Source: Styela clava | Lineage: Eukaryota > Chordata > Ascidiacea > Stolidobranchia > Styelidae | Assembly: GCF_964204865.1 (NCBI RefSeq) | Contig: NC_135263.1 | Coordinates: 10,461,426-10,525,425, forward strand | Reading direction: 5' to 3' | Length of the DNA stretch: 64,000 bases | In this document: piece by piece, positions 32,401 to 60,100 of the stretch | Numbering within the stretch: position 1 is the first letter of the stretch | How the letters are laid out: each line of letters begins with the position of its first letter | Position numbers and translations under genes: made by a program | Notes under the pieces: model-generated | Told to the model about the DNA's origin: nothing | What the model saw: only the letters and a program-made list of their open reading frames with translations | Databases searched by the model: none

Positions 32401-34142
32401 GAAGGGAGTCGATAGCGACCAGCGGTTATATAATGTAGAGTAGATAGTCTTGCGCTTTTTTGTGAATAGTTAAGAAATTTCTTGCTGAAAAAAGGTAAAC
32501 ATGTCAGTTGAGCAGTGATAGTTAAAGTTGAATTTTATTTATTTAGGAATTTTAATTAGTCATTGCAGAGATAATTTCTTCCATATTATAAATTGTTTTC
32601 TCTGCAGTTTAGCTACAGACAAATTGTTGGCTATAATGGCTGTTGATCCAGGTTCAATTGATAGCAAACCTCTAACATGGGTATGCCAGTATATAGCATG
32701 GATTTTAATTGGACTTGTTGGTGGAGGAAGCTGTGCAGGAGCCGTATTTTATGGGATGGATTTAGATAATAAAAGCTTACTAGGGTGGTCAGTAATCTAT
32801 TTTTTTTTACCTATATTGGTTATTGACAAATTACATTTATACAACTTGTTTCTACATAATTCCCCAGATGGTGTCGTCATAATAAGGGGCTCCCGAAGTA
32901 TGCGAACCAAGATGGCGGACATCGGAATGTAATATGTGTACTAGGTTAGGGTTAGGCCATAATTTTAGGTATAAATACTACGGGAGGCTCTTGGCTAGTC
33001 TTCGAACTGATAATAGGACTAAAATAAGGAAAATTGGAAAAAAATTATCGCCTAACCCTAACCTGTTACCCATGTTACGTTCCGATGTCCGCCATCTTGG
33101 TTCGCATACTTCGGAGACACCAATGAATCCCTTTTTCAATTTTTTTTAAATTCATTTCATGTCTAAGTTAAAAATGGTACCAATGTTTGAAAAGTTGCAG
33201 TTGATGTATTTTTTATTTTAAAACTTGGAAAGCATGTAATATACAATGTGTGTCGAAAGACCAAATGAGGATGGATGTTTTTCCCATCTTTGACATTGAA
33301 AAAAATTCCTTCCGACAAACTGAATGACCTTGAGGTATTTGATGTACGAGTACTTGAAATTCGGGAGCACAACTACAAAGTTACAAATATCTTAAGCCAG
33401 AAAAACAAGAGTGGTCATAACCATGCCGAAAGTATGTCTAAGTGAAAAAGTGTCAGAGCGGCTCGTAAAATTTTGCCATCATTGTTATCTTGCCAAGGTT
33501 TCAGAGAGTTGTCAATGTGAAGTTAAAATGATTTTTATGTTTTGTATTTAGGTTAATATCATTTTCATGTGGATTGCTTGAAAGCATATTTATTATCGAG
33601 ACAATAAAAACCGTTTTACTGGCTTATCTTGATGTAGTTCTTAACGCACAGATGGATTTATCAGATTGGATACCCCCACTAAGAGCGGAAGGTAAAATTT
33701 TATATATCTTTGAGCAAAGAAAGATCTGGAGAATCTCAAAACAAGAATAGCACAAAAAGATGAACTTACTGTCTCTACCATTTCTTAACAAAACATGTTT
33801 TAAAGTCTTTTTGTGAATATGTATTTTTTCAGGTTTGTTGTTATAAATCATCGTTTGTTGGTAATTTGACTAAAATGAAGAATGAACTGTGTATGTCAGG
33901 AGGTTACCTGTTTCCTTGTCACGATCCACTATTGTTTACTGAAATATGATGCATTTTATTGGGTTTCTAATATTGATTTGGAGTTTTTTTCGATGGAGTA
34001 TTCAACCTTGATTTAATACATTAATTTTACAGTTTCTCTCAAAGAACATGAGTTTCCACAAGAACGGTTGAGAGAAATTGTGGCAGAGCGAAAACAGCTT
34101 CAAATCTACAAAGGTCCAGTTTCGAGAGATGACATGTCATGA
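14416..34142 (+). CDS. Polycystin-1-like receptor, s-Themis-type (CUB/REJ/GPS/PLAT), paralogue 1
   Basis: 25 exons: 14416-14503, 15955-16111, 16544-16704, 17403-18853, 19039-19291, 19932-20265, 21369-21568, 21955-22137, 22427-22719, 23411-23536, 23620-23772, 24342-24498, 24980-25065, 25474-25879, 26388-26803, 27318-27623, 27702-27854, 28587-28742, 29697-29827, 30362-30553, 31106-31278, 31362-31983, 32608-32787, 33552-33691, 34033-34142 (TGA). Sum 6627 nt, 2208 residues, phases consistent. Order: signal peptide (1-29); CUB-like domain (30-135, LYSPFYPDC...CGTGFILYYVF); PKD/Ig-like repeats (about 136-560); REJ region (about 580-1050); Thr/Ser-rich stalk; GPS (CSVWDDKLEDWNFDIC...DWCECDL, about 1470-1530); TM1 (about 1611-1632); PLAT (1642-1800, KIWQDGQGNNPQW); TM2 and TM3 (about 1824-1880); Lys-rich cytosolic loop (about 1885-2062); TM4 and TM5 (about 2091-2150); short tail. 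The six-TM channel is absent. Introns after 18853 and 23536 have GC donors. Probably a membrane receptor; sperm expression is inferred from the Themis parallel. Exon 12's start is the least certain boundary. Confidence 0.85.
14670..15242. mobile_element. hAT-like element in intron 1 of receptor 1
   Basis: Ends are CAGGGATGGCGAACC and GGTTCGCCATCCCTG, a 15-bp perfect inverted repeat. Flanking octamers are ATATAGAG (14662-14669) and GTATAGAG (15243-15250), 7 of 8 identical. No intact transposase frame is present, so it is non-autonomous or decayed. It occupies the intron position where receptor 2 carries a nested fibrinogen gene. Confidence 0.8.
16859..16933. repeat. Short palindromic relative of the 13651 foldback element
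   Basis: GGTGTTTCAAAAATGTTGTGTC... pairs with its own 3' half (GTCACAACATTTCCAAGACGTC) across a GTGGGACAAG-type centre. Sequence and layout resemble the element at 13651-13841, with most of the centre lost. It lies in intron 3 of receptor 1. Confidence 0.65.
18854..18855 (+). other. Non-canonical GC splice donor, receptor 1 intron 4
   Basis: Exon 4 ends ...ATTTATAAG and is followed by gcaagt, a good match to the GC-donor consensus. The next exon starts at 19039 after ttccacag. The homologous intron of receptor 2 has gtaagt at 46108 at the same codon boundary and phase, so the GC is a substitution in this copy. Confidence 0.8.
22995..23290. repeat. Dispersed repeat in intron 9 of receptor 1
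   Basis: Segments such as 'gagctggtaaccgaaggag...ctgattaagctgtc' (about 23210-23260) resemble 'tggactggtaaccgcgcgag...ctgattaagcagtc' at about 35855-35915. An internal version occurs near 23082-23110. This looks like an old dispersed, possibly SINE-type repeat; no ends were defined. Confidence 0.4.
23537..23538 (+). other. Non-canonical GC splice donor, receptor 1 intron 10
   Basis: Exon 10 ends ...CCTCTGCTT followed by gcaagt. Using it keeps frame into exon 11 (23620). A nearby GT at 23541 would throw the next exon out of frame with an early stop. The homologous donor in receptor 2 (49209) is gtaagt in the same phase. Confidence 0.75.
24120..24256. repeat. Two similar segments with tRNA B-box-like cores
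   Basis: 'cattcctgtaggtttcgaacccgcaaacccatgg' (about 24224-24256) repeats 'catttccacaggattcgaacctacaaacccatgc' (about 24125-24158). On the minus strand both contain GGTTCGAA-type cores like the B box of tRNA promoters. I found no matching cloverleaf or A box, so these are not called tRNA genes. They may be SINE-derived. Confidence 0.4.
28913..29253. mobile_element. hAT-like non-autonomous element, intron 18 of receptor 1
   Basis: Ends TAGGGGTGTGCAACCT and AGGTTGCACACCCGG are inverted repeats. The octamer CCATAAAC is perfectly duplicated at 28905-28912 and 29254-29261. The interior has 'gcgggccgcac' motifs usual in hAT-derived MITEs and no coding frame. Confidence 0.88.
29843..30153. mobile_element. 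hAT-like non-autonomous element, intron 19 of receptor 1
   Basis: The left end is CAGTGTTTCCCAATG and the right end GGTTGGGAATCACTT, imperfect inverted repeats of the common CAGTG(G/T)TTCCCAACC type. Flanks gtctattg and gtctaaaa agree only partly, so the insertion is older than the one at 28913. Confidence 0.7.
32886..33121. mobile_element. MITE with long terminal inverted repeats, copy 2
   Basis: Almost identical to the element at 9889-10125 over its full length, including the TTAGGG-bearing internal arms. Its right terminus is slightly altered (cttcggagacacc instead of cttcgggagcacc). No clear target duplication remains. It lies in intron 23 of receptor 1. Confidence 0.88.
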
Positions 34143-38211: not shown

Positions 38212-39828
38212 GAGTTTAATGAGGCGCTCTTTGAAGGCGCAGGAAAATATGAAAACACCGGGGAAAGAATTTCTGAGAAATACATAGAAATGTACGGACC
38301 CAACATCACAGACTATACGGAAAAATATTTGAAATATAAATGACCGACATTTGGTTTGGATGTCCATCAAAAGCGCTGGTACGGTGACATGAGAAATAAA
38401 CAAGAGCATAAATGTAGCTTACACCAAAGCAGTTTTCAATAAAGTTTTTTTTTTGACAAGAAAACTAGAATTATATACAGGAGACAATTTCCTATCTGCG
38501 TGAATCCAATGTATAATCAACTATTTCCACGGCAGCGTTGTCGTTAAACACGATTCTGCGAATCTATTAAAGCAGTTTTCAAATTATTTGTATGTAACCC
38601 TTCCCCTTGTCTACCATTTCTACAAACTGCAAATTTCATTCACTCGTTGATATTCGAAACGATGGAAAAAAGATTATGAGAATATACTCAATAAACAAAG
38701 TGCTATTTTCTATTTTCTCCTGATAGTTACATTTCAAGGACGACGGAAGAATCTGTCTATTTCTACATCTTCAGTCACGCGCTTGACGGCAATAATTGTA
38801 AAGAACCTCTTGGAAACTTCTGCAGACATTCGTACCCCGGGCACAAACTATTCTTTGTGTTTAGAACCATGAAACATAGCGGGTTAGATTTGGTCTAATT
38901 TATTCAATTTAAGACGCATGCTATTAGAACAGACAATCGCCTCAATGGCGTTTTCTTTCTAACTTGTACATTGTACTTAAAATAATACGTAGGCTATAAT
39001 GTTTTAGTTTAAGTGAACAAACTAAATTTACAAAGTATACTATGTTTACGCAGTATATTAATAACAATAAAATATTTGCGTGATACCTACCAAGAAATAA
39101 CTCGATTGTAATTCGTTTTCGCTTTGCAGAACAGAATTTACACTGGAGTTTAAACAAGGTTAATTAAGGTTTGAAAACTATTTACATCTTATTGAAACAA
39201 TACCTGATCATTTCCAGTAATGTGGAGTCTGGGAAAAAGTCTTATTCAATAGACTGTTAGGAATAACTATTCAATTAAATCTATGTTCAGTTTCTGTTGA
39301 AAATTATGACTTTGATTATCACCATGAAAAGGTACACTTCAATTTTAAATGCTTTTCGTCGATATTTACAACTTATGTCCATCTTGATTTATTTTCTAGG
39401 TTCATTCCAGATGACCATGATATCTTTGTGTCAGATCAATTTAGTACGTACTGGGGTAGTTTGGCTCGAACAGGTAGTTCTTCAGGTGGTCTAGAAGTTT
39501 CATTGCCAGGAAATGTTCAGGAATGGTATCAGTATTCAAAAACCTCTACACAAAACGGCAAGCCCTGGGTGAATATGAGAATCAACGATCCTTAGAGGTA
39601 CCAGGAAATTGATTACTTAAAAGAAATCTGTGATTTTCGGGATAGCTTGTGCGTTTATGCAGATATTACAAATGAAGTAGATGTCTCTACAATGGCTTCG
39701 TTAACAACCACCGATTACAACACAGGGTGTTGGTGAACTAGAAACCACTAGTGGATCTAACACTCCCCTGCCTTTCCGAGTCGGCCCATTGCTTACGACA
39801 TCGCTATGTGTCATTTTATTTTTCTAGT
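38212..39828 (+). pseudogene. Esterase 3'-half pseudogene, inverted copy
   Basis: Three blocks match the last three exons of the minus-strand esterase in order: 38212-38383 (exon 8), 38727 to about 38883 (exon 9) and 39400 to about 39828 (exon 10). Splice-like ag and gt flanks are still visible. Exon 8 has gained bases that shift the frame to a TGA at 38341. The exon 9 copy has substitutions around the catalytic-His motif. The exon 10 copy has an in-frame TAG at 39593 and later disruptions, although FSTYWGSLARTGSSSGGLEV is still legible. Intron-containing structure means DNA-level duplication, not retroposition. Exons 1-7 are absent. Confidence 0.88.
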
Positions 39829-40330: not shown

Positions 40331-43300
40331 ATGGATCTCCCTTTTGTGTACAAGCACTTCATGTTGGTAATTTTTCTAAAGATCTATCGAAGTGAGACCA
40401 GTGAGTTTGCTTTAATTATTTTGTGTTTTGATTAGCATCTTGGGCAATTATGAAAGCACTATGATGGCGTCGTATTTTAAATAATAATCTGTAATTATAA
40501 ACGATTTCAATACGATCTTTACTCTAAAAACTACCAAAAGCAACAGCAACAAATATGAAGCGCTTAAAATAAATAGAGTCAGTAAGTCGGAGTGAAGAAA
40601 TCGTTATTTTAATACCTTACTTGATTAGAACAAGGAAAATATGTACAGGGGTCATACTAATCACGAACACCTATGTTCTATTAGACAATACATTTTTGAG
40701 TGAATGACTAAGACTGACATACTATGAATTAAAAAAAATTATCACACTAGAATTTGTCTAATTATCAAAATTAAAATATTTGTGAATATTAGATGAGCAA
40801 GGACAAGGGAAAGTTGACAATCAACAAACAATTTTTAATAATAGCTGTTACGAGAAATCTTGTAATCAAAGTTACAATTTGAATTTTTAAAGATTTTAAA
40901 CCTGTGCTTATTATTAATTTGGTCAGAATTCAATACAACAAATTTTGGAGTACTTTTCAATAATTTTGTCCATGACAAAGCACTGTTTGCAAAAGTACTG
41001 AATCGTTTTTTTCAGTAACCCGCAATTTTTTTATTGTAATTTCATCGTCACGTAACGCAAAGATGTATTGTTTGAATTTACTTTTTTCCAGTGTTTAACA
41101 TAAATTTTGTCCACTGTCATTTGTTCTTCTTTAGTCGCATAAACACCATTAAGATTAGAATGTCTACAACTTCCAAACCACCAGCCACCCCTTTGCAGTC
41201 GCAAGCATTCGGGAGAGCGTATAGTATTACTGTGGTAGTCAAATGTGCTGAAAGTTTTCCCAACAATATATGCCATTGGTGATCTAATTTGAGGGGTACC
41301 CGTGCACGTTCCAATGCTAGTTATTCGGAAATCATCGTTTTCTGGATTTATATAAAAAGAATTGCATTCTGTGTAAGCATGAGCACCATCCCAATCTGTT
41401 AGGTCGATTCGTAATGCCAAGTTATTTTCCACCGTTCCAATTCTTTTCTGATGCAGTAAAGCGTCTAAATTATACAGGCCAACCCAATATTCTTTGCTTG
41501 GAAATCCAAACCCGTGAAGGTAATCATTCCAGCCCCGATCAAAATTTACTTCTCCATTTTTTCTACGCTGTATAACCATCCACCCGCGCTGTCTGCTGTA
41601 TTTGCCGACAGTCTCCATGTCACAAAATATTGATATAAAACGATAACCAAGAAAAATCCATATTCGGTATACATCGCTATTGACATAGCCATCGGAAAAC
41701 AACTGGTGGCAACCTGTAGAAAGTTGAAAGAAAATAAATAACTTCCAAATATTAACGTTTACCAAAGCATTCCATTTGATTGTAATTCTGCTCAAATTTT
41801 CGCTTGACAACATGAACAAAAGCTATTCATTCAGTCTTGGGTCGAATCGTAGTAATAATTGCGATGCATGGCCGTGGCGCATTTTGAGAGCTAAGACTAC
41901 TACATTTCAAGCTTACCAATATTGTTAAAATTGTTTGATAGATGTACAATCCGTTTCGAATCTCTGCTGAAAAACAGTTGCTTAGTTCAGTGGTTCTCAA
42001 CCTTTTTTAGTTTGTGGACGATTTCAAAAAAAAACTAATTTTGCGGACAGGTGAACTTTCAAAATCAACCCATAAGAGAACCACTGAGCTCAGTTCATCC
42101 ATTGACTTGAACTATATTAAAGCATAAAATTAATAGCACTAGACTGTGCTTTATATATTACATGATGTCTGAAATATTTATAACAACAGGACATTTATAT
42201 AAAAATAATTAAACCTGTATAAAGTTTTTCAATTCTCGGGTTCAATTCATCCGTAGTATTTCTGTGACCAAAGGCATCACAAGTCCTATTCAAATGCATC
42301 GAGTCATTCAATTCAGCCACTCGTACTACCAATGCCTTTAATTGCTTTTGAATAGCATTGGCACTTATAATCATGCCGTCATTGGGTGAAGTCATGCATG
42401 TATCGGCCATCAAGATATATAGAAAAGATAAAAGCAACCTATTCATAATTTTATGTGTATCTGAAATGAAACAATGTGTTTTTTATCGAGTATTAGGAAA
42501 AACACATGTCATTTCTCTATCTTAAATATTGTTGACGTTTACAGTGCTGTCAATACATTCTTATTCATGATTAAATCATCATTTCTCATTAAATATATAT
42601 ATTAAAATAATTTCGCCGAAGAGATTATTTGAGCGCTACTTATTATTACCCATCTTTAAACAAGAAAAAGTTCCAGCCACGTAATTCAGAAAACTGAGCT
42701 AATTTCTTTACAATCGGCTTCAAATTAGAGGGAATGGGATTTCCTATTAATTTCTAGAAAAGACGAAAGTCGAAGAGACAAAAATCACAAGGGATAATCA
42801 GAGTTTTGACGCCACACCTACGTCCAACGATGGTCTAACTCAGTGGTACCCAACCGCCGGTCCGCGAAGCTTTTTCGCCGGTCCGCGGGAAATTTCATTT
42901 CGTTGTTTTCCTACCGTCTCAATCGCTTTACCGAAGTCGAAAAGACGAAGTTACGTTGGTTTATTACGCAATTTCTTTTCCGCCGTCATATTGCTGTTTG
43001 ATACGTGCGGTATAGCCCGGCGACGTCTTAGTGCCGAGTAATCACACTTTTCGTTTTTTCGGTTCCGATTCATCGCGAGGCGCACCGTAAAATCTCGCCA
43101 GATTTAGAAACCTGCAAATCAGCATGCGTGCTTTTTCCGTTCTGCATGCTTTTCTTGATTATTAAGTTGAAGTTATGTTAGTTTATTACGCAATTTCTCT
43201 TGCGCCGTGATATTGGTGTTTGATAAGTGCGGTATTAATAGTCCGGCGACGTCTTGGCGCCGAGGCTTTTCGGTTCCAGATTCATCGCGAAAGCGTTCCG

Positions 43301-46300
43301 TCAAATCTCGCAAGATTCAGAAACCTGAAAATCAGCATGCGTGCTTTTTCTGTTCTGCATGCTTTTCTTGATAATTGATTCGAAGTTACGATGGTTTATT
43401 ACGCAATTTCTCTTGCGCCGCCATATGGGTGTTTGATAAGTGCGGTATTATGGCCCGGCGATGTCTTGGCGCCGGCGCCGAGGCTTTTCGGTTCCAGATT
43501 CATCGCGAAAGGGCTCCGTCAAATTAACTGCAGAGAGATTAATATGATGAACACGATAAAATCTCTACCTTACAGTCCAGATTTATAAAAGAATCATTGT
43601 CACAATTCATTCTTGAGCTCTCTTGATAACGAATACCCATCGCTAAGTAATCGAGCAATCAAACTGTTGGCCGAATTGTCAACCAGTTACTTCTAGCTTT
43701 AAAACGAAGTAAATAAATTGACTGTGAGCCGCTGCATAGCTACGTGTTGCAAAACCTTTTTTGGTGCCTCGTTTGCAATCCTGTATTGAAAACGAAACAG
43801 TAGCAAAATTCTCACTGGAGTTAATTGTGTTTCTACATGATTAGGCATGTGCATGTTTTTTATGTTAGATGTGTGCCTTTTTTTATGCATAATGGGTGCC
43901 CAGCACTGCATTTTATTACGCAAATATATGTTATTATTTTATGTTCCACCCATTTCAATTTTTGGCCGCCATTATTTGATAGTTTTTCCTCATGTGAAAT
44001 GTTTTTAAGTGTACCTTTTTTTTTCTAAAAGCATAGTGATTGCCCGACATTACGCAGATATATGTTATTATTTTCTGTCCCACTCATTTCAATTTTAACA
44101 TTTTTTAACATGTATAACTGTAAACCACAATAAGCTTTCGCGACTGAATTTCCAAAACTGCATCATTGATCATTTCATTTTTACAGACGTTTTCGAACAT
44201 GGTGAGGGGACCCTGTTTACACCTTTTTATCCAACGTGTGAAGGGACTACGAGCGAATTCTTATGGACATTCTCCCTGAAGCATCATCCTCTCGTTGTAT
44301 TGAAATTTATGAACTTCGAAGTATTTCCGTGAGTATTATCTTTTTTTTCTGATGATTGATCCATGTTTCTGGTTAAATCTATCTCGATAACGGAACCCTT
44401 AAAACTTGACAGATGCACAGCTGCCAAAGTATACATCAAATATCCTCGAAAAAAAGATTTTTTTTGCGGCGAAAAAATTCCTAAATTGGTGCACACAGCA
44501 GAAAGTATCACAATATCTCTAGAATCCAAAAGTGGAAACTGTGGAAAAGGTTTTGAACTGCAATACGTCTTTCCCCGTGAGTCATTTTAGTACGGATCAT
44601 ATACGCTATATGACCGCTATAAAAATTTGTCTTTCTTCTTATATATTGATAGGACGTAAATTGTTTCGAAATTTGTTCTTATTTAGGTATTTATATTGAG
44701 CAAAACCCGTTGATGTCTAATCGAAACGTGTCATTTTACGTAACAATACCCGGATTACCAAAAGAAGTATCAGCTAATTGTGAAATTGATATTGGTGATG
44801 AATCACACGAATTAAGACTTTCTACCAATGTTCAAAAAGTCTACCATGTTTTTACATCTTCTGGAAGTCATAACTATGATACAGCGTGTTATTTAAGTCT
44901 GTCAAATGCAAGTAATTTTTTTGCCATGCTCGAAAGGCATGGTTCATTTCAAGTTCAAGACAGTTTGAATATTTCAACTTTCGTTTCGGGAATTTTCTTC
45001 TACAACGATATATCCAGCACATACTTGAGTGAAACAACAATAAGAGTTTATCATCAATTTGCATATCCGATTACATACAATTTGGTATTTGGAAATGAAG
45101 CAAGTAAGATTCTAACTAAAGAAGCAAAATATACTGATGAAACCGTGTATCAACGGTCTAATATGTCGATCTCCTTTGCCATTACAGAAGATATTCAGCA
45201 ATTTCTAAGTCCAGGCTTGCATGAGGTAAAAATCATTCTTCAAAATGATGTTTCTGTAGTTGAATTGCCGTTTAATATTACTTTAAATAAGGCATTGAAT
45301 GACGTCACTGTCGAGATACAAAAGTACGTCGATATTCACCCCGCCAAATTTCCTGTTATCGTCCGCATTGCGGAGGGATCCCCGGCTTATATTGAGATAA
45401 GCATGAAAAACGTAGAAAAAAACGGTATCATTTTCATTAATCTTATTACTTGTAAAAGTATGAAAGAGTGTAAGGAAGGCGTCACCATGGAACTCTTTGT
45501 CAACTCACCAGGGACGTTTGAAATCTTCGTGTCTGCAAATAACAGTTTGGGGGAATTAAAGTCAGTTCCAAAAACAGTGGAATGTTTTAATTTAGTACAT
45601 GAGGTATTTGTTGTTTCTGGATCACCTGGTTATGTCGGAAAAAGACTGAAGATATTTGTTTTTTACAAGGTTTTCGCCGACAATGGAGTTTTCGATTTAT
45701 TTATAACTGGAAATAGTGAGGTCTTATTGGATAAAAGGCTATCGAATCACGTGCGAAGTAATGCATCAGGATTTGCGGAAGAAAACGTGCAAGTTCCAAT
45801 CAATCTAAAAGGATTCAAAGTCTTTGAAACAGAACAAATATTTCAAACAGAAGGAAATATTGAAATAGTTGCTAGAATGTCGACAACAAATAAAAAAGTC
45901 CAAATTGAAGACAGGTTCCTATTGAATGTGTTGAAAGATCAATCACAAATGTGTTTGTCAGCGATAAAGATTCGAGATGGCAACAAAGAAAATTACAATA
46001 ATAGGACAATTCGTGTATTGAAGTCACTGGTTTTGACTGCAAGTGTCGAACTCCATTGCCAGCTCGACAATACCAACGTAGTAGAATATATGTGGTCCAT
46101 TCACGAGGTAAGTGAAGGATTTGAGACTTATTCACTGTCGAGTTTGAATAAAACGTCAAACACCACCAAATGTAACAGGCCCAGTTGTGTTAGAGTTTTG
46201 AATTTTTTTTTATCCAAACCATATTTTGCTAATTTAAAAAAAAAATTATTGTATAATGAAAATGGAAAATAAGCAAATCCACGTTAGTAAAAATTGAGAT

Positions 46301-49300
46301 AATTAGTTTCAACTATTGTTAAATTTTACCACATTCACGATCAGCAAAAATCACTATACTTTGTTACAATCAGGTTAAATCAAAGAGCGAACTACCAAAA
46401 GACGCGAACAAAGTTGGCATCAATGACCTCGATTTTACTCAGAATGAGCTAGTAATTAAACAAGGAAAATTACTACCCGGAATTTATATCATGAAAATAA
46501 CTGCCTCAACTCGCGATAAAAATGGACAAACTTCTGGCAAGGTTTTTGATTACACAGCTATTGAAGTACCTACACTTTCATTGAAAGCTAAGATCTGTGG
46601 CGCTTTCAAATTGGAAATTGGTGAGTTATATCATTTGATTTTGAAGCAGTTTTAGGTACATGAAGTCGCTTATTATTTTACCTAAACTTTTGTCGTCGAC
46701 AAAACTTTTTATTGAAAATGTTTTTCTTTTTTTTTCTACAAAAATTAAATTATCAAAAAATATTCTATTTTGTTCGTGAAGTGCTTCTTTCCTACTAATT
46801 AAATAAGCAGGCAATTCTTGTTTACAAAATTTAAAAAATTTGTAAAGGAACTTTTTTGCTTTCATATGTCTGCTCAGCATAGCTATTTTTCTGTTAACTT
46901 TAACATAAAACTAAATAACTGTCTTCAAATAGGCCAAGATATAAAAGAATTCAAATACGATGCCTCCTGCACACCAAGCTCTAATACTCTTGTACTTGCA
47001 TACAAATGGTGTTGTGCAATATCAAATATTGACATTCCTACCGATAAGAGCGTGGGAACGTACACGAATAAAGGTTCTTGCTTCAAAGGGAGGCCAGCAT
47101 GTTTTTCAACCACAGAATCGGGACAAATTAAAATTTCAAATACTGTGATAAAAGACAAATTTTTCCTTCGACTTTTCGTTAGTGCAAATAATTTTGATGA
47201 TGGAATTGCAGATCAAGAAATCACCGTATTGTCTCAATCAGTGCCAATAGTAAACATTGTGTAAGTTTTATGATATTATAATACAATGAACTGACTTAAT
47301 CCAAATCGTCATGACAGTGTGTAGTTTATATAAAAATTAAGTCAATTGCCTCGCTAAAAATCTTTACTTGATACATGCAAGACTATTCCTATGTTAATTC
47401 CACTTACTTCCTGTTTCAGATGTTGGTCAAATTGCGCAAACGAGATTAATTCACAAGATTCTTTGATATTGCAAATAGAATGCGAAAGATGTATTAAATT
47501 TCAATGGACAATCATTGATTGGAAAGATGATGTCGTACAAGAATGTAACTCGAGTGACTTCTGTCAAATTATGACGGGCATTCTCACACACATCGGAGAA
47601 GTTGTTGAAGTGAAAGTTGAAGGTTCGCCATTCTGAAGTGGTGTAATTCTTCCTCTTATTTCATATGATAAAGTGGTCACTTGTAAACAAGTTGTACCCG
47701 CGTGTACATAATCTTAAATAAAAATTCAGCCGGAATAATCAAGATATTCATTAAACGTAATGTTTTTTCATGACCTTAGGTAAATTAATTATTATGTCAA
47801 AAATAAATAAATATTAGGTATATGATGTTTGAACTGAAACTTTATCAGCAGATAACAAATATAAATTCTATTATACATCTGAAATTCACGCTAACTATCA
47901 TACGAAAATTGATTAAAATTGTGTTGTCATTTTCGGAATAATGATATAAATTATCACTGTTCTAGAAGCAATATTTTCTTATATAATTGAAATAAATGTA
48001 AATCAACATCACATTTTTGCATTCAAGGTATTGATGAATTTGGACGGAGTGCTGCATCCACATTTCAAAGCTTTATAAAGACATTTTCATCAAACGTGAC
48101 CTGCGAATATGAACCTCAATCTGGATTTGCCTTTGTTACACAATTTCGTGTATCATGTTCAATTGAAGAAACTGATAATTTTATTTATCAATTCTTCTTA
48201 TTGAATGAAGGTAAATTTTAATTTTTGCTCTCGGTGCTAACAGTGAAATCATATTTTGCATTCTACTCTTGGTAAATAGATCTCACACACTGTTCACCAT
48301 GAGTTAAAATAGAAAATACGTTAAATTGTTAACCTCTGATCAATTCGATGGTATTCGACTCTGTAATTTAAAAAAGGGGTATGGATCTTTCAATTGATGG
48401 TCAATTTGATTTACTTCATTATAGTATATTCTATTTAGATGGCACAAATCCTTTGCTACAGCATGGATATGACGACTCATTAGAAAACCTTATTCTTCCT
48501 CCCGGACTCACGCATATTGGAATTCAAGTCTGTTCGTCAACGAATGCTTGTACTAAAACAAAAGTTTCCATTGAAGTAAAGTCGGCCCCTGATGAAATTG
48601 CTGAAAAGATCATCAAGGATATTCCAACACAAATATCTAACGCGATCAATTCTGGAAATTTACAACAAGCCGCAAAATCTGCAGCATTATTATTGGAACA
48701 TGTTGAGCTGAACATTGAAACGGTTAGTAACTGTAGTCTTCTTTCATATACTGATTGTTCACACTTTGCACTTGTGCTACGTTACAACATGTCGATAACG
48801 TTACAATTTGCGTTTTGTGTTAATTCACATATATATTTATGATGAGAAATTGAAGTTCATAATCTATAAAATAAAGCAGTGCTTCTAAGAAAAAAAAATT
48901 TTTGGACTTTATTCACATAACAAAATTACATCACACAAAAGTAAAATTTTATGTTAAAATAGACATATTTAATCTTCATTTCCTCATTTCATTAAATTTT
49001 ATCTAAAATAAAATAACGAAAATTATTAGCTACCTATAAAAATTAACAAAATGATTAATATATATATTTGAAAATCTGTATTTAGAAAGTACAAATTACT
49101 ACGAAGTTCGCCAATTCACATTTCTCATCGACGGAGTCGGCTAAACAAATGTCAGACGTTTTACAAGAATCGATTAAAGATTCAGGGAAGTTACCAACGG
49201 ATGTTATTGTAAGTGTTGACAACTATAGTAAACATTCTATTCAAGTATAAATGTTCACTTTCAAGATAAATAAATGTGTTTATTGTATTTGAGAAAAATT

Positions 49301-52300
49301 TAGTAGAAAAACTGACAGAAATACAAGAATGGATTCGTGATGACGAAGAATCATCGTCTGATATTTTGAAATCAGTTGCGTTATCTTCTATGCATCTATC
49401 ATCCAATTTGATGGAATCAATGCCGGATTTTAATGAGGTTAACAATTTTGATTACTAGATATCATAAGATGTGGGGACTTGATGTAGTCTCGTTACTAGA
49501 TCAATATAGGCTACAACACACAGGATTGGTTAACACTTGAAACAGGCATTCCAATTTTATCATTTATTTCGAATAAAAAAAAAAACGATTAGTCGAAGGC
49601 TTGAAAAAATATTTATGTCTGTTATCAGATTTCAAACATTCACTTAGGACTATTTTCTCACTGTTCAGCATTATATCAAAATTGAATTTAAAACTCTTTT
49701 GAATAGCTATGGCGTAACAATCAAAAGTTTTTAAGTAAAACAACACAGATGAACACTCATTCCAATATTTATAATTGTCATCATCCTCTAAGATTCTGCA
49801 ATGCAACACAGTGAGCACGAAAAAGTCAGGAAATTGAGTCCTATATTTCGAATAAAAGCATTTCTTATATTTGAATAAACGATATAATTAGAAATACATA
49901 TGATTAATTTATATGTCATTTCTCGGTACCAACAGCCTATGGTATTAATTTCATTTAAATCTCACCGCAAACTCGATACCATGTTTTCTTTTTTTAGACC
50001 TCAAGCACCCGTAGTTCATACTCATCACCATTGTTTCAACGTACAGCATCAGTCATAGATCAGCTAGGCTCCGAGATTCTAAAAACTGTTACACCTGGAG
50101 AGGAACCGATCAATGTAACAACGTCAGCGTTCAAAGCGAATTTAAGAAAAATGGAAAGAAACTCTAGTATGTTCGTCTAAACTCTAAAGTCTAAGTCTAT
50201 ACTATAGAAATGTCATACTATTCCAAAAATAGTTGTTAAATTCATTTATTAGTTTAATACAGAATTTTGCTTGCAACATTTCAATCTCTATATATAAACT
50301 GAAAAATATTCTAATATTCATAAAAAAAATTTGACACAGCTATTTATTCAAAACAGGTTTATCTATGAATGGCGAATACGTCAAAACAAGAATTGATTGT
50401 GACTGGTCAAGCATAAGACAAACAGAAACTATCAATCTGCAGGTAACTCATTCGCTGTTATCGGATATTAGCATCAACGAAAAATCTAATATCTGTGACG
50501 TTAAGAAAACTTTTGCATCACTGAACCAAATAGTTGTGAAAGTTACCTTCGTTATCATTTGTTTCTATTTGAATAAAATCAATCGAGCTCCAAAATTTGC
50601 TTCGGTAATTTCCTTTTTCCAACCATTCATTCGTTTAATAAACTACCTACAATCAAATTAAGTTTTTTTTTTCATTTTATAGCTTTTGCTACAAATCCTT
50701 TTATTATTATTGCCTTTTGAAAAAACAAATTTAGTAATGGCATATAGCTCATAGATATCATTTTCAGGTTATTCGATACTTTCCAACTAAAGCAAGATTC
50801 AACACAAAAACGTCTGAAGTTGATGAAGTTGCATCAATTTCACTTTCAACAACTCATAAAACTCACAACTTATTGAAACCAATAACAAATCCACTGATTC
50901 CTTCAAAACCTGTTCAAATTTATCTGCATGCCGACAAGCATATTCCTGATTCTTCTATAGAAATGGAATTTAAAATCAAGGACTACAAGAATGACGTTCA
51001 AAATTTTACGTTAGGCATTCAAACTTTTGAAAACATGTTCGTCAATGTTCGTCTGCATTCTAAAAATCTTCCGGAGAATGTAACGTTGAATGTTACAATT
51101 AGGAATGAAATTGGAAATATCGAATCACATATATTGACCAAAGCAGGTAAAATCTATATGATGATCTCTTACTTCTATCTTTCTTGTTCTACCGAAAAAG
51201 TTTTGTTCATATTTCCTATTTGGTGATAACAAACTTTTTCAATGTTCTTTATATGTTTTAATCAAGATGTGGTCGCCTATGTTTACCAAAGTTGCCATTA
51301 TTTTTGCCTTAAAGCTAGCATAGACGGTATCTTTGCTATCGTTATAAATGTCGTTTTTCCGTATCTACCACAGATTTCTCAAATCATAGTTATGCATGGA
51401 AACTGCATTTTCATGACAGAGGAAAAATAAACCATGAGTTTATTATTCTTGCATCTACGACAGAAGATTCCAATCAATCTCGTATAAATTTTATTTCAAA
51501 TCGCGATAGCGCTACTACTGATAATATTGCAACTGCTTCAAACTCTAGTCTTAATTTGATAAATACAACTGTCGAATCCAAAACAACTATCAAAGACACA
51601 ACTTCAACACCTGAGATTAGGTTTAACTTAACGATGAAAATATACGCAATGAAGTGTATGCGTTGGGACGATATGATAAAAGATTGGACCACATCATTTT
51701 GCAAGGTTGGTAGAAGTCGGTTCATTCATATTAATAATCAACCGAGAATATTGGGTTTGCTAATCGCTGTCAGTATTAACTTTATAATCTTTGCAATAAG
51801 GCAACATCTGGAAATGAATCAGACAATCTAGATTGGTGTGAATGTGATCTGAGTCAAACACAGTCTGGGAGATTAAGTGGAACATCAACATCCTTCAATA
51901 TTTTTTCATCAAAGCTTCTTGTCTTCTCACCGCCATTACCAAACAAAATTGAACTAAACGTTGTTGAGTACATCAACAACACAGGAGGAGTGGATGTAAG
52001 AATATGACTAGTTTGTATTATTGCTACTGACTTTTTCCTCGTAACAAATACATATTTCTCAGAATGATACTGATAGCGATGAATGAAAATTTGGGATCTT
52101 GTATACAAAATAGTTTTTATACAACAATATGTTTTAAAGTTATATAGGCTTGGGTGTTACCTATAACTGTATTCACTATCAATTAGACACTGTTAAAGCT
52201 CATTTTTTAGGGTAAAATGCAACAATTTATCAAAGTACACTTTTGAAAATCAATCGTACATAACTTTAATATGTTGTTATTTTGTCTTCCCTACTTCCCT

Positions 52301-55300
52301 AGGTCGAAGAGACGATTGAAAACATCAAGGATGAATTAGAACAAAACCCGATAGTGCTGATCGTTATTTCTATTATTGTGATTGTCTTCAGCGGAATGAT
52401 AGTATGGGCCAGATATCAAGATAAAATTACAAAAAACTTGGTAACTTGTTTGCTTATTTTAGTTTCTTAAAACGTTTCGTGGCACAGAAGAAGAATTCTA
52501 AAATATATGAAGGTTTTACATGCGCATAAAATTCATGTTATTGGAATTTTCAAAATCTGAAGACATTTCGTTTTAGCTTTTGATATACTTCGAATGAAAC
52601 TTTAGCCTTAAGCAAATTTTTTAAATAAATATGAACAATTTGGACCAGCGACTATTCTTTCTAACTATGCATTTTATTCACATTCCATTTATTTATTTTA
52701 TGAGATGATTGTAAGATTGTAAGATTATTTAAACTTTTTGCATAATGATTTAGTAAATATAAATTTGATTTATTCGTTTTATATGTTTTTACACAATTTC
52801 CATATTGTTTTAACATGGATTTTCTCAAGGTAAGAATTCATAATATACTCCCTGATCGATAAAGAATTGTTATGAATTTCGATTTCAGGACCAATACGTG
52901 GAAGTGTGCGATAATGTTCCTTTCGTTTCATATCGATATCTAATGACTGTGTTTACTGGGAGTCAAAAACATGCCGCACCAACATCAACAATTGCCGTAA
53001 AGATAAATGGAACAAACCAGCAAAGCATTTTGCATTTGTTGCAGGCAAACATCATAAACTTATTATAGTAAAAACGTATATTTTATGTATTACCAAATTA
53101 TTTGAAATTTTGCTCATAACAAAATAATCGTATAACTGTCGCAAACACACTACGAAGAAAGGATGGCATTATAATGATTACTATTTGGGTTCGATTCTAC
53201 TCGGTTACATTATTGCTCTGTGCAGCTAAAAGAGATTGTCGTAGGTTTATGAAATGTAGATCATTTTAAGCTAAGATAGTGAATACTTTTGCAGAAGCAC
53301 GATGATACAATTCATTTTCTATCACGCGGAAATGTCGTCACATTTCTGATGACATCACTGCGATGTGTAGGTGATATCACATCTATGAATATTTGGCAAG
53401 ATGGAAAGGGAAGCAACCCAAAATGGTAAAATTGAATTCGATTATACAATATGGAGCATAACCTAAATTGAAAGTGAACATATATATACAGTACATGTTA
53501 TTTATATGTTTATACAGTGCTTCATCTACCTAATAATTGGTATGTTTGTATGACATTACAGGTATATTGAACGGCTTGTTGTTCGTGACTATGAAACTAA
53601 TGAATGTTGGTTTTTCCTGGCAAACGAATGGTTGAACGACGAAGAACCGTTTGCTGAACCGATGGAACTTGTTTTATATCCTGCAACAATGAAGGAACTA
53701 CATTCGTTTCGAAACATATTCCTTATAAAAGTATCATATTATTTAAAAGATAGGTCAGTTGAATGTAGGTCAAAATGAAGGAACTCCATTCGTTTCGAAA
53801 CATATTCCTTATAAAAGTATCATATTATTTAAAAGATAGGTCAGTTGAATACGTCAATATTTCCTTTTAAATTAATACTGGCAATGGGAATACAATAAAA
53901 ATGTACTGCAGCGCCTTTTTCTGTGTTTTAGAAATTTGCCGTTAATTGTTATTTTTTGCAGTCACATTTGGTACTCTATCTTTGCACTACGAGAATGGTC
54001 TTGTTACAATATGAATAGAATTGAACGGGTTGGCTGCTGCTTTCTTCTTATAATGATGATCATCGTTACGTCACTAATGTTTCATGGACGGATTGGAGAT
54101 GATTATGATATATTGAATTTATTATCAGCATCTAATATCATTGCAGGTAATCGCCGTCTATAATAATACGTCATAATACTAATAACAAGATTTGGAACAG
54201 CAGGTCGTGACTGAAAACAAAATATTGAATAAAATATCGTTTTTTTTTCAGGTTTGGAAAGTGGTTTATTGTGTTTTCCCATCACATATATTGTCTCCGT
54301 AATGTTTCAATCTTCAAGAGCTCGTGACTCTGTAAACTCCCTCGGCAAAGAGAACATGTCGCTTGAAACGATTTCGCAAAATTACTTAGCATCGAAAATG
54401 AAGTTGTTCAACGACGAGCAAAGGAAAAAGTCATCAAATTCACATTTGCAAACAACATCAAATCGCTCTCGCATAACGGGCCGTAAATTCTCGAATATGC
54501 CAAAGTCTAGGAACCACAGAGGTGCGGAACTCAGGAAAAAGTTGTCGACAGAGAAAATATCACCTCACCCCTCAATGGAGGGTTTGAACTCAGAGAAAAT
54601 ATTAGTTTTTTCGAACAAAAAGAGAAAAGCTTCGCGTGATCAGCGTTCGAATATGAAGCAAAATAGTAACCACAAACCGAAAAGACAAGAAGTGCGAACG
54701 TTCACGGAAAGAAGGAAATCGAGGAACTCACAAAATATGAAGATTCCAAAACCTTCCTCACATATAAGCAATTTCAGGTACAGAGAATAATCATGTATCG
54801 TTAATAAACTCATATATGCAAGGTTGTACGAAGTGAGCAGAATTACTGTTTTCTTACTGAACGATTATTTTTATTTAGTTTTACGCAAACGGAAATTGCA
54901 ATTATGGATGTTGACCCAAGTTCATCTGATTTCAAACCTCTTCCATGGTTTTTCCGATATATAGGATGGATGATAATTGGCGTTGTCAGCACTGGATGTT
55001 GCGTACTCAGCATTATTTACGGAATTTCATACGGATATAATGACACAATCAAATGGTGGGTGCATATTCAATAGTTGGTACTTGAAAACACTATTTTATA
55101 GATAAATATAGTTGCACAAAATAAGATGAGTTTTTGATGAAAATGATATCCAAAGACTAAATCATACATTTATGCTCATATGTATACGATACACTGTAAT
55201 CGATTTGTATTATACTCCAAATAATTTATTCATTTAACTTGTTTGACTCACTTGTGTTCCAGGTTAATTTCCCTTCTATTTGCAATATTGGAAAGTATTT

Positions 55301-55936
55301 TCATTCTTGAACCGATCAAGTGTATTATTCTTGCTTATATTGCTGTAATAAGTAATCCGAGATTGGATGTATCAGACTGGATTCCACCACTAAAAAGAAA
55401 AGGTTATGTCAATTAATAAGTATGCAAGTACATTATAGGCATAATGCTATCGCGCAATTGAATATTATGAAATCACATTGCAGTCCGCATCACTGAATTA
55501 TTCCATATATACATGTATAGTAACATGACAACAACGCAATTGCGTAAAATGTATTCAGTTGAAAATAAAGTGTTTATTTTTAATTTCTTAATATATAAAT
55601 ATGGATCATATTTGTACAAATATTAACTGTACCTACAACACCAATGTGTCCATCTTTTTATAATTACATTTTTTATCCTATCTCGATGTGATCTATTGCA
55701 TAAATACATTGCATGTTCTCGATATTAAGCTTTACCACTGATAAATTTGCTATTATGCCTTTTCAGTTGTAATAAAGCGTCATGAAAATCCACGCGAAGT
55801 ATTGAAAGAATTGATAAAAGAACGTAAAACGAGCCCAATTTATAAAGGACCTGTTTCGAAAAATGAGAAAATGCGCAGCATGGAAAGAGACCGAAATTCA
55901 CAAATCACAAATACTAGCTCATGCGGTTCGCAATGA
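40331..55936 (+). CDS. Polycystin-1-like receptor, s-Themis-type, paralogue 2 (hosts the nested fibrinogen gene)
   Basis: 25 exons: 40331-40400, 44187-44328, 44413-44576, 44687-46107, 46374-46620, 46933-47260, 47420-47622, 48028-48210, 48439-48722, 49086-49208, 49294-49437, 49998-50166, 50357-50442, 50768-51146, 51374-51705, 51801-51995, 52303-52440, 52889-53044, 53295-53425, 53562-53753, 53962-54146, 54252-54777, 54879-55055, 55263-55402, 55767-55936 (TGA). Sum 6285 nt, 2094 residues; every exon phase matches paralogue 1. Order: leader (MDLPFVYKHFMLVIFLKIY); CUB-like (24-125); Ig/PKD-like repeats (about 126-545); REJ (about 560-1020); GPS (CMRWDDMIKDWTTSFC...DWCECDL, about 1405-1445); TM1 (about 1510-1532); PLAT (1537-1695, IWQDGKGSNPKW); TM2, TM3; basic Ser/Arg loop (about 1780-1930); TM4, TM5; tail with YKGPVS. 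No channel domain. Intron 1 (40401-44186) contains the antisense fibrinogen gene, the s/v-Themis arrangement. Exon 1 is the least certain part: it rests on leader, phase and donor only. Confidence 0.86.
41031..42446 (-). CDS. Fibrinogen-related protein nested in receptor intron 1, v-Themis-type
   Basis: Two minus-strand exons: 42446-42215 and 41713-41031, 915 nt, 304 residues; the split GGT codon joins in frame. Residues 1-19 (MNRLLLSFLYILMADTCM) are a signal peptide. About 25-77 is a helical, leucine-spaced segment (ANAIQKQLKALVVRVAELND) likely to form a coiled coil, with N-glycosylation sites NDS, NRT and NTT. Residues 78-304 are a fibrinogen C-terminal domain: MVIQRRKNGEVNF, GFGFPSKEYWVGLYNLDALL, RGGWWFGSC, SNLNGVY. 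The calcium-site acidic cluster of the paralogues at 3650 and 10337 is replaced by FSTFDYHSNTIRSPEC. In Ciona, v-Themis proteins are egg-coat fibrinogen-like ligands encoded in exactly this position; function here is inferred from that. It shares no IGFBP module with the other two fibrinogen genes. Confidence 0.88.
41989..42087. mobile_element. Small hAT-like element in the intron of the nested fibrinogen gene
   Basis: Starts CAGTGGTTCTCAACC and ends GAGAACCACTGA, inverted ends of hAT type enclosing about 70 bases. Flanks gcttagtt and gctcagtt agree in 7 of 8 positions. No coding content. Confidence 0.75.
42842..43780 (+). mobile_element. Decayed hAT transposon remnant in receptor intron 1
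   Basis: The left boundary CAGTGGTACCCAACCGCCGG is a hAT-type end. Near 43621-43695 the plus strand encodes DNEYPSLSNRAIKLLAEL, matching the C-terminal dimerisation region of hAT transposases, followed by a stop. The middle is occupied by three tandem units (42948-43524) that look like expansion of element sequence. The right end was not found, so 43780 is approximate. Confidence 0.65.
42948..43524. repeat. Three tandem units of about 215 bp
   Basis: Units start at about 42948, 43167 and 43380 with 'gaagttacg(t/a)tggtttattacgcaatttct', and continue with 'gtgcggtat...ccggcgacgtctt' and 'ggttcc(a)gattcatcgcga'. The third unit is truncated. They are more GC-rich than the surroundings. No coding role seen. 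Confidence 0.85.
43870..44096. repeat. Two-copy tandem repeat just upstream of receptor 2 exon 2
   Basis: The block 'gtgtgccttttttt...gggtgcccagcac...attacgcaaatatatgttattatttt...cccatttcaattttt' (about 43873-43963) recurs in diverged form at about 44010-44096, at a period of about 137 bases. It ends about 90 bases before exon 2. Confidence 0.65.
53045..53046 (+). other. Non-canonical GC splice donor, receptor 2 intron 18
   Basis: Exon 18 ends ...TTGTTGCAG followed by gcaaac. In paralogue 1 the exon has the same length (156 nt) and ends ATTCTGCAG|gtgagt at 28743. The alignment and frame require the boundary here, so the donor is GC. Confidence 0.7.
53688..53850 (+). repeat. Tandem duplication covering an exon end and its splice donor
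   Basis: The 77 bases at 53688-53764 (last 66 bases of exon 20 plus the donor AG|gtcagttgaat) recur at 53774-53850, offset 86 bases, with one mismatch (acta to actc). The intron therefore holds a second copy of the donor. Reading through to it adds the codons for SVECRSK and then a stop, so only the first donor keeps the protein intact. Confidence 0.92.
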
Positions 55937-57165: not shown

Positions 57166-60100
57166 CTAGGTAAGTAAAATGCTACATAAAAATGTCGTGA
57201 ACAATATGAAGGTGTTGAAAGGCGATGGTTGGTTAGATTCACTTGTTGTCTCTATTTCACCAACTCTTTGGGTTGTGGCCGGCGGTTGAACATCAGTTGT
57301 AAACGAAGCCATTGTAGAGACATCTACATCATTTGTAATATCTGCATAAATACCCAAGCTATCCCAAAAATCACAGGTTTCTTTTAAGTAATCAGTTTCT
57401 TGGTAACTCTCAGGATCGTCGATTCTCATATTTACCCAAGGCTTGCCGTTTTGTGTAGAGGTTTCTGAATACGGATACCATTTCTGAAAATTTCCTGGCA
57501 ATGGAACTTCGAGACCACCTGAAGGACTACCGGTTCGAGCAAAACTACCCCAGTACGTACTAAATTGATTTGACACAACAATGTCATGGTCATCTGGAAT
57601 GAACCTGGAAAGTAAATCACAATACATAATATGATCTGTAATGCTCGGTGAAAAATATTCACGTCAGCAAGTGTACAATCAGACTTAGTTTTCACCTACA
57701 TTCAGGATTTTACACAAAAAGCTGGATATAAGACACAAATTTTCAGTATATATATATAGGCTCTTGAATTAATATGTTTTGTAGATTTGGTCATTTACAT
57801 AAACTAAAACATGTTCGTATGTTCTAATTTTATCTTATTCTAAGTACAATGTACAATTAAAAATGTTATTGAGTCGTATATTTAGTTTAGCGAGCAATGT
57901 GTTTTTAAAATAAATGAATGAAAATAAATCTTACCCCCTATGTTCTATAGTTCTAAACACAAAGAATAGTTCGTGCCCGTGGTACGAATGTCCGCAGAAG
58001 TTTCCAAGAAGTTCTTCACAATTATTACCATCTAACGCGTGGCTGAAGATGTAGAAATAGACAGATTCTTCTGTCGTTCTCGATGCGTAACTACAAAGAG
58101 AAGATACGTAATAAACAGAATAGGTTACTATGTATAATGTATAGTGAATGTTTTATCATAATCATTTTTTTTTCATTTGGGGTAAATAAATTGTTCATTT
58201 ATTTATACGGTGTTCCATTGGGTTAACTTGCTTCCTTCTAAAAGTTATAAGGGATTCGTCGTCAAAATCTTGCAACAACTGCTGCTCAAGCACGTTAGAA
58301 AAAGGGGTTTATGCTCAGTTCTGCTGAAACTAAAATATGGAGTAAGCTATTTTGGAAAACAGGCTTGTTGACAAAAGGTTGCTCCAAATAAATAATCACA
58401 AGAGCTGAGGGGTTATTAGCCTGTTTCAAATAAGCAAGAGTAAATTAAATTTAGCAAAATCCAAAAAAACATTTCGTGTTTAACGACAACGCTGCAAAGA
58501 AATATTTGATTATACACAAGCAACGCTTCTTGGGTTCACGCAAACATGGGAATGTCTCACATATATATATCCATGGTTTTATTGTCGTAAAGAGTCTTTA
58601 TAAAAAATGCTTCTTGAGTTAGGCTACATTTACGCTATTGCTTATTCCTCATCTCACCGTGCCAGCGCTCTTGATGGGCATCCAAACCAAATGTCTGTCA
58701 TTTCTATTCCAAATAATTCTCCGTAGTCTGTGATGTTGGGTCCGTACATTTCTATGTATTTCTCAGAAATTCTTTCTCCGGTGTTTTCGTATTTCCCCGC
58801 GCTTTCGAAGAGCGCTTCATTTAATCCCTACAAAGAGGTAATGTTAACGTTAAAATAACTGGATCTCTCAGTCTAAACGGTCCAATTCCAGTGAAGTTAC
58901 TCGCTCAAACCATTCTAATATTTCATTCAGATTAATGTTTGTAAAAATAATTGGCACTGAATTGAATGCGTTGAAACTGAGTTTTATTCTGTAAAATGTT
59001 GTTACAAAATAGCTTACCCGGAAAATATATTCATTCGGTATTGGAATAATATATTTTATCACAGCTACTTCTTCGGCGTTTGTCCCCAAAATGATTGGTT
59101 TATTTGTTTGCCATTTCCCTTCTCTAAATAGTTCCAGTGGTTGACCGATATATTCAGTGCCATCGATGTAAGGACGAAAAGGCTCCATTGCAAAGATTGG
59201 ATCTAACTTAATCCATCCAGAACCCATCATTTTCGCCATTGTCGATATAAGCGTTTCTGGGTCAGCATCCCTGAGGTATAATTAAACTGGATTTAACAGG
59301 TAAAGGTCAGTTTGGTTGAAAACTGGAGGTAATAAAGGCGGATAATGGAAAACAAATTACTACTTACATTAGGCATGTGTAATTATCTTTTCTGTCCGGA
59401 CAACAGTTTGGGTTCGGAATTGGTAATGCTCCAATTGGACCGTTGCAGCGAAGATAACCGATTAATTTATCAGTAGTTTCTAAAGCCTCACCCAATGTTG
59501 GATACGTGAACACTGCTGGATTACTTTGCATGATAGCTTGATGAAAGAGAGGATCGCTGTTGTTTGACACCAAATGGAACATAACTGATTGTGCACCGGC
59601 ACTCTCACCAAATATTGTCACCTGAATAGTGTAGAACCCTTTTAAAAATAGCTCACAGTGCACAACACAATTTCAATCACGGAAATTCTCATGTTATAAT
59701 AATCAACATCGCACACTCACCTTAGTCTTATCTCCTCCAAATTTCTCAATGTTATTTTGAACCCATTGCATTGCCAGTTGTTGATCTTTCAAACCCTGAT
59801 TGCCTTCAATTGTTTTACCGTTTTCGTCAAAAGAAAGGAATCCAAAAGGACCTTTGAGCAATATATTTTACAGTTATTCAACTTGGCGGAATAGAGAACT
59901 AAAAGATCGGATTTTTTTAAAATTTCAAAACGGATTACGCATCTGTTTTGCATCGTTTTCTTTATAGTTTTTACCGTGTTAAATGTAATAAAAGTAATAA
60001 AAAAATGTGCGATGCATTTTGTTGTACTAGAGAGCAGATTTAATAACCCAACCATTACCCAATCTGTAATTGATGGTCACAATAATTGCATTGATTGCTT

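Follow-up and report, generated by a model that had tools for sequence, protein, structure and literature searches.

Receptor genes with antisense fibrinogen genes, probably of s/v-Themis type, form tail-to-tail pairs in a tunicate genome

A receptor gene that appears to carry, within its first intron and on the opposite strand, a complete gene for a fibrinogen-domain protein raises an obvious question: do the two genes form a self-recognition pair like s/v-Themis, the linked sperm and egg genes of Ciona? The receptor gene, R1, lies in a stretch of 64,000 nucleotides (the window, C18:10461426-10525425, where C18 is contig NC_135263.1) of an assembly of 376.6 Mb in 379 contigs; positions given without a contig are those of the window. 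We consider it probable from the sequence that R1 and its intronic neighbour v1 are an s/v-Themis-type pair with A-type architecture, the host being a tunicate and probably not a Ciona species, and from this we infer a role in self-sterility. The s/v-Themis kind itself was already known; the present case is distinguished by a set of four pairs arranged tail to tail, together with one unpaired relative.

According to PMC7018956, the s/v-Themis receptor plan comprises a variable N-terminal region, REJ, GPS and PLAT/LH2 modules, and either five membrane spans (A) or 11 spans and a channel (B); in Ciona, s-Themis-A has five spans and s-Themis-B and -B2 have 11 spans and a channel (PMC7018956, PMC8849226). 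An exon-by-exon splice model of R1 (40331-55936, + strand) contains 25 exons with consistent phases and a single frame of 2,094 residues open to the stop, and its 24 introns are GT-AG with one GC-AG exception. Exon 1 (40331-40400) is predicted from an ATG, a signal-peptide-like hydrophobic stretch and a GTGAGT donor, and is followed by intron 1 (40401-44186), which contains v1. Exons 2-3 (44187-44576) encode a CUB domain (residues 26-122, E=3.7e-5) belonging to the strongly diverged N-terminal part of the protein, and exon 4 (44687-46107) is a large ectodomain exon, the 5' part of which falls within the diverged block in the C17 twin described below. The REJ region (residues 577-999, E=1.1e-29; approximately 46040-48680, introns included) and the PLAT/LH2 domain (residues 1553-1658, E=8.5e-14; approximately 52937-53642, introns included) were recognised by Pfam. 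Hydropathy gives five peaks, one ahead of PLAT (span 1, residues 1507-1525, exon 17, 52303-52440) and four behind it (spans 2-5, exons 21-24, 53962-55402), although another setting yields six, the last two overlapping. We therefore describe R1 as an s-Themis-A-like receptor with five predicted spans and without a channel. Its best match among solved structures is polycystin-1, over the stretch from the first transmembrane span (TM1) through PLAT to TM3 (E=9.3e-25). At the place expected for GPS, exon 16 (51801-51995) encodes a degenerate GPS-like Cys-x-Cys stretch from residue 1437 on, and the absence of the H-L-S/T cleavage tripeptide suggests that R1 is perhaps not cut there. A short direct duplication (53683-53763 and 53769-53849, translations 93% alike) runs from the end of exon 20 into the adjoining intron.

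The intronic gene v1 (41031-42446, - strand) encodes a protein of 304 residues with a Fibrinogen_C domain (E=6.1e-40) and a hydrophobic, secretion-signal-like N-terminus. Its two exons (exon 1, 42446-42215; exon 2, 41713-41031) agree to the base with the initial annotation, which had placed a complete two-exon fibrinogen gene antisense within the first receptor intron; it is the bounding receptor exon 1 that is predicted. Between v1 and R1 exon 2, the intron also holds a repeat of about 215 bases (42936-43528, seen as overlapping self-matches).

Is this arrangement unique? When the reading frames of R1 and the v1 protein were searched against 258.6 kb around the locus on C18 and a second locus on C17, further copies emerged, and in all the genome contains four receptor/ligand pairs, two tail to tail on each contig. 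On C18, R2 (- strand; exon 1 10538914-10538845, stop 10525619; 2,097 residues) faces R1, the two stops lying 8,258 bases apart, and is accompanied by v2 (10537053-10538136, + strand, 305 residues). On C17, R3 (+ strand; predicted exon 1 14543539-14543614) contains v3 (14546877-14544666, - strand, 307 residues), and R4 (- strand) stands tail to tail with it, with a few kb between the genes; v4 (14581139-14582410, + strand, 311 residues) lies directly 5' of R4 exon 2. All the paired genes are open as far as they were modelled, the models of R3 and R4 stopping short of their last exons; a stop flagged within the v4 match sits just ahead of v4 exon 2. The nested antisense geometry of v1 in the predicted intron 1 of R1 thus recurs in pairs 2-4 (exon 1 being predicted for R1, R2 and R3). 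The other pairs also favour true nesting of v1 within R1: by the same criteria (ATG, hydrophobic stretch, donor) there is no exon-1 candidate between v2 and R2 exon 2, and in the C17 pairs only 35 (R3) and 43 (R4) bases lie between the start codon of the ligand and receptor exon 2. Upstream of R1 stands one more receptor, R0 (14431-34142, + strand; 25 exons, two GC-AG introns, 2,163 residues), with no fibrinogen match in its predicted intron 1 (14504-15954, 1,451 bp), which follows a predicted exon 1 at 14431-14503.

Both families are sharply delimited. The TM1-PLAT-TM2 part of R1 has 25 matches in the genome (all 37 candidates scored), 23 of them in R0-R4 and two weak ones (E about 5e-4) on C4. 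A search with v2 gave 135 matches among the best 150 of 367 candidates: v2, v1, v4, v3 and a broken copy, v5, come on top with main pieces at E<=2.1e-39, the next match reaches only 9.1e-10, and within these 150 there is no further copy of the ligand clade. This gap makes the ligand clade small and distinct from the many other fibrinogen genes, which amount to at least 161 Fibrinogen-domain matches genome-wide (best 150 of 718 candidates scored). Four of the five ligand-clade members found are intact, and each of them sits antisense directly 5' of a receptor's exon 2, so that four receptors among the five found in this family have such a neighbour. The broken v5 (C17:14532069-14532745, - strand), with stops and frame breaks, lies about 12 kb upstream of pair 3, and no receptor exon was found beside it. 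A piece of receptor exon 4 (C18:10540823-10541036, - strand), nearer to R2 than to R1, lies upstream of pair 2.

The two loci differ in the C-terminal part of their receptors. A genome search with PF08016 returned seven matches, none within R0-R4, from which it appeared that no receptor of the family has a channel. This was overturned by translation of the conserved blocks that follow exon 25 in R3 and R4, which encode a polycystin domain and a channel; short exons that have diverged can escape a family search run exon by exon, as happened here with PF08016. In R3, the channel part matches Polycystin_dom (7.5e-31) and PKD_channel (7.6e-15) as well as the PKD1L3, PKD2L1 and PKD2 structures. The joined R3 model (2,496 residues without the last exons) shows 13 hydropathy peaks, which we read as 11 spans by leaving out an ectodomain peak and another that falls where the polycystin domain ends. 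R4 carries the same channel exons (tblastn). Eight channel peptides of R3, searched at E<=0.5 in the C17 and C18 regions, match R3, R4 and three chance-like pieces on C17 and have no match on C18; the C17 receptors therefore have B architecture and the C18 receptors A architecture. R0 shows four hydropathy peaks. The pore region of R3 (C17:14561124-14561654) reads TQSIVAYAAGAYMN. The pore of PKD2 carries an LGD filter, and the occurrence of TQSIVAYAAGAYMN in its place suggests that R3 is a PKD1-like, perhaps partner-dependent, subunit. A PKD2-like gene is present elsewhere in the genome (C1:11031781, PKD_channel E=1.5e-80).

Within each twin, the ligand and the receptor N-terminus are the variable parts, as judged from paralogues within one assembly. 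In the C17 twin, collinear blastn pieces at 77-94% identity cover the span from 14548441 (mid exon 4) to 14561687, introns included, whereas from 14545368 to 14548441 no R3/R4 piece of at least 60 bases aligns at E<=1e-4, giving a sharp boundary; v3 and v4 align at 66%. Synonymous differences per site between R3 and R4 are 0.813 in v, 0.684 in the first 300 receptor codons after exon 1 and 0.236 in the rest; the corresponding values for the R1/R2 twin are 0.649, 0.646 and 0.445. On shuffling of codons, the observed contrast was reached in none of 5000 trials in either twin. As the synonymous contrast is found in both twins, the ligand gene and the receptor N-terminus appear to form one old block on a younger or homogenised remainder, and the twins may have diverged much as has been described for Ciona B and B2.

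A tree of R0-R4, with the TM1 to TM3 stretch of human polycystin-1 as the single distant outgroup, recovers R1/R2 (ultrafast bootstrap 98), R3/R4 (100) and R0 with R1/R2 (91); the PLAT domain of R0 is likewise 62-64% identical to those of R1/R2 and 50% to those of R3/R4. Since homologous v genes accompany both receptor clades, the simplest view is that the nesting is ancestral and that R0 lost its ligand. REJ or channel matches outside the family lie on C1, C4, C10 and C14, at C17:10.25 Mb and at C18:10.42-10.44 Mb. A grouping of the receptor with ordinary PKD1 or PKDREJ, which had been raised as a possible outcome, was answered at the level of this genome, whose other PKD1-like loci are separate from R0-R4. 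Vertebrate PKD1 and PKDREJ share REJ, PLAT and the membrane plan with R0-R4, which nevertheless form one clade on a long branch to human polycystin-1. We know of no nested antisense ligand gene in PKD1 or PKDREJ. Two candidate further pairs were rejected. The PKD1-like gene at C18:10420781-10442473 (- strand), which shows REJ and channel matches and lies 20-40 kb upstream of the window, has no v-clade match among the best 150 candidates of the v2 search and only weak similarity to R0-R4; no exon 1 was located for it. Upstream of R0, two fibrinogen-domain genes lie tail to tail (3967-9188, + strand, IGFBP E=2.5e-5, below the cut-off, and Fibrinogen_C E=5.7e-18; about 12664-10350, - strand, read by eye), both with an IGFBP-like N-terminus and both outside the v clade. 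The second does not make R0 a fifth pair, as the predicted exon 1 of R0 comes after it and its E-value in the v2 search is 1.5e-5, where the intact v genes reach 2.7e-65 or lower.

How closely does the whole resemble Ciona? R1 matches the s/v-Themis receptor plan in its CUB-REJ-PLAT order and five spans, and R3 in its channel, GPS being present in degenerate form only; the two kinds of locus, told apart by the polycystin channel that B has and A lacks, correspond to C17 (B) and C18 (A). With s/v-Themis-A of C. intestinalis type A (C. robusta), on chromosome 2q (PMC7018956), the pairs on C18 share REJ, PLAT, five spans, the lack of a channel and the antisense ligand in intron 1; Ciona has one described A pair, whereas here there are two, tail to tail, and R0 without a ligand. 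The C17 pairs resemble s/v-Themis-B and -B2, on chromosome 7q of C. robusta (PMC7018956), in having a channel, in being twinned and in differing most in the ligand and N-terminus, and the broken v5 and the exon 4 fragment on C18 recall a truncated extra copy at Ciona locus B (PMC7018956). However, Ciona B and B2 lie about 70 kb apart and their conserved region is almost identical (PMC7018956), whereas R3 and R4 are tail to tail with a few kb between them and, outside the block, 23.6% of their synonymous sites differ. Beyond C. robusta, homologous pairs are on record for Halocynthia roretzi and Ciona savignyi, without functional tests (PMC9265791, PMC8849226), and for H. roretzi the same sources give "at least four alleles" of the pair. 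The proposal of the initial annotation that this is the same system as in Ciona is thus supported by architecture, nesting and orientation (PMC7018956), by the channel-bearing second locus and by the co-diverged twins; of its two alternatives, a further locus fits and an already described one is unlikely, given an assembly of 376.6 Mb as compared with about 120 Mb in C. robusta.

Several points weigh against the assignment. The comparison with the Ciona proteins is one with their published descriptions, and common descent is putative. Every receptor exon 1 is a prediction from sequence, that of R4 is not settled, and for R1 three rival exons between v1 and exon 2 are equally hydrophobic, although their donors (GTGCCC, GTGAAA, GTAAAC) are poorer. 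Pfam reports no GPS in R1 at E<=0.5, so that the GPS module of the initial annotation survives as a degenerate stretch only, the CUB-like, REJ and PLAT modules being borne out by the open 25-exon model and the Pfam matches. At E<=1, Pfam finds PLAT and CUB but neither REJ nor GPS in R2, REJ and PLAT with GPS below the cut-off (E=0.019) in R3, and PLAT without CUB, REJ or GPS in R0; in alignments, the REJ exons are 76% (R2) and 33% (R0) identical to those of R1. As to the diverged block, the 300-codon cut was chosen after inspection of sliding windows, the edge in R1/R2 is not sharp, exon 4 being alignable throughout, and the intracellular exon 22 of R1/R2 is also fast-diverging (57% identity). 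Positive selection was not detected: the ratio of non-synonymous to synonymous divergence (dN/dS) is below 1 in every computable window, with a maximum of 0.69, synonymous sites being saturated at key positions.

What else could these genes be? The pairs might be true s/v-Themis homologues that in this species act in sperm-egg binding generally or in recognition of the species, or whose function has lapsed, and that enforce no self-sterility. Self-fertility does occur among ascidians, for example in Phallusia mammillata, and according to reviews it is not known whether the pairs take part in the self-sterility of H. roretzi and C. savignyi. Nevertheless, none of the four pairs is interrupted in the parts modelled, each has kept its ligand and receptor linked, and the diverged ligand-plus-N-terminus block is the expected remnant of versions matched in cis; we thus regard this alternative as unlikely. 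A second explanation, that each twin is a pair of haplotypes wrongly joined in the assembly, draws on the high identity of the 3' parts of R3 and R4 and on the large allelic divergence expected at such loci. It is disfavoured because there is little similarity between the outer flanks of the two members. What aligns is, at E<=1e-10, 646 of 43,400 bases on C17 and 1,669 of 60,174 on C18, in four pieces each, including one 1.3 kb piece at 87% on C18. Moreover, R0 stands on one side only of the C18 twin, and even outside the block 44.5% of synonymous sites differ between R1 and R2, which leaves misjoining very improbable. Fibrinogen-domain lectins often serve immunity, and the abundance of such proteins in the genome would accommodate a third explanation, somatic recognition by blood or immune cells instead of gametes; a ligand clade distinct from the other fibrinogen genes, and a receptor with the REJ-PLAT polycystin plan known from sperm receptors (PMC7018956), speak against it, and we hold it very improbable too. 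Finally, that an unrelated fibrinogen gene came by chance to lie in the intron of an ordinary PKD1-like gene is extremely improbable, since, even with further members of both families in the genome, one small ligand clade takes the same geometry at four places.

On the preferred reading of an s/v-Themis-type system, and by analogy with Ciona (PMC7018956), v would be laid into the egg vitelline coat and R would be carried by sperm. Because v and R would be inherited as one block, sperm would carry the receptor version matching the coat ligand of its own parent; versions matching at the loci would provoke a Ca2+ influx and the release or stop of the sperm, and selfing would fail. Lacking a channel of its own, R1 would act through the channel-bearing B-type receptors R3/R4 or through another polycystin.

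It is tempting to go further and to propose, tentatively, that each locus became a two-specificity self-recognition block by inverted duplication, with gene conversion between the inverted copies keeping the signalling parts of the receptors alike while the ligand-plus-N-terminus blocks stay separate. Each chromosome set would then hold two specificities of the A type and two of the B type. The nesting and the split into A and B would both predate Ciona, such paralogues might account for the "at least four alleles" noted in Halocynthia, and R0 would be the remainder of a pair whose ligand was lost.

Other features near these loci and elsewhere were noted in passing. Carboxylesterase pieces lie between the tails of pairs 1 and 2 (57166-59281, - strand), with COesterase matches below the cut-off (E=2.2e-4 and 5.3e-3), and a fragment between R0 and R1 (39221-39595, + strand) that looks similar by eye has no Pfam match. 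C9 has a GH6 match (16179895, E=1.5e-6) and, on the same strand at a distance of about 2 kb, a cellulose-synthase match (16177457, E=2.2e-4). As the joining of cellulose synthase with GH6 is characteristic of tunicates, the host looks like a member of that group.

In the literature consulted, Ciona is the animal for which there is genetic proof of self-incompatibility through linked genes of sperm and egg, and twinned A-type and B-type loci outside it are undescribed in the titles and abstract openings of the mostly open-access Themis literature. If the present assignment is true, the occurrence of A and B types, each twinned, outside Ciona would mean that the system and its odd nesting are old, and a rare animal self-incompatibility system would become open to study beyond one genus. 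It also bears on whether H. roretzi, whose self-sterility has mostly been explained via VC70, uses the same system. The gene models are ready for asking which residues of the ligand and of the receptor N-terminus co-vary, and may also help to show by what route new matched pairs come about, given that both halves have to change, and if inverted twins favour this.

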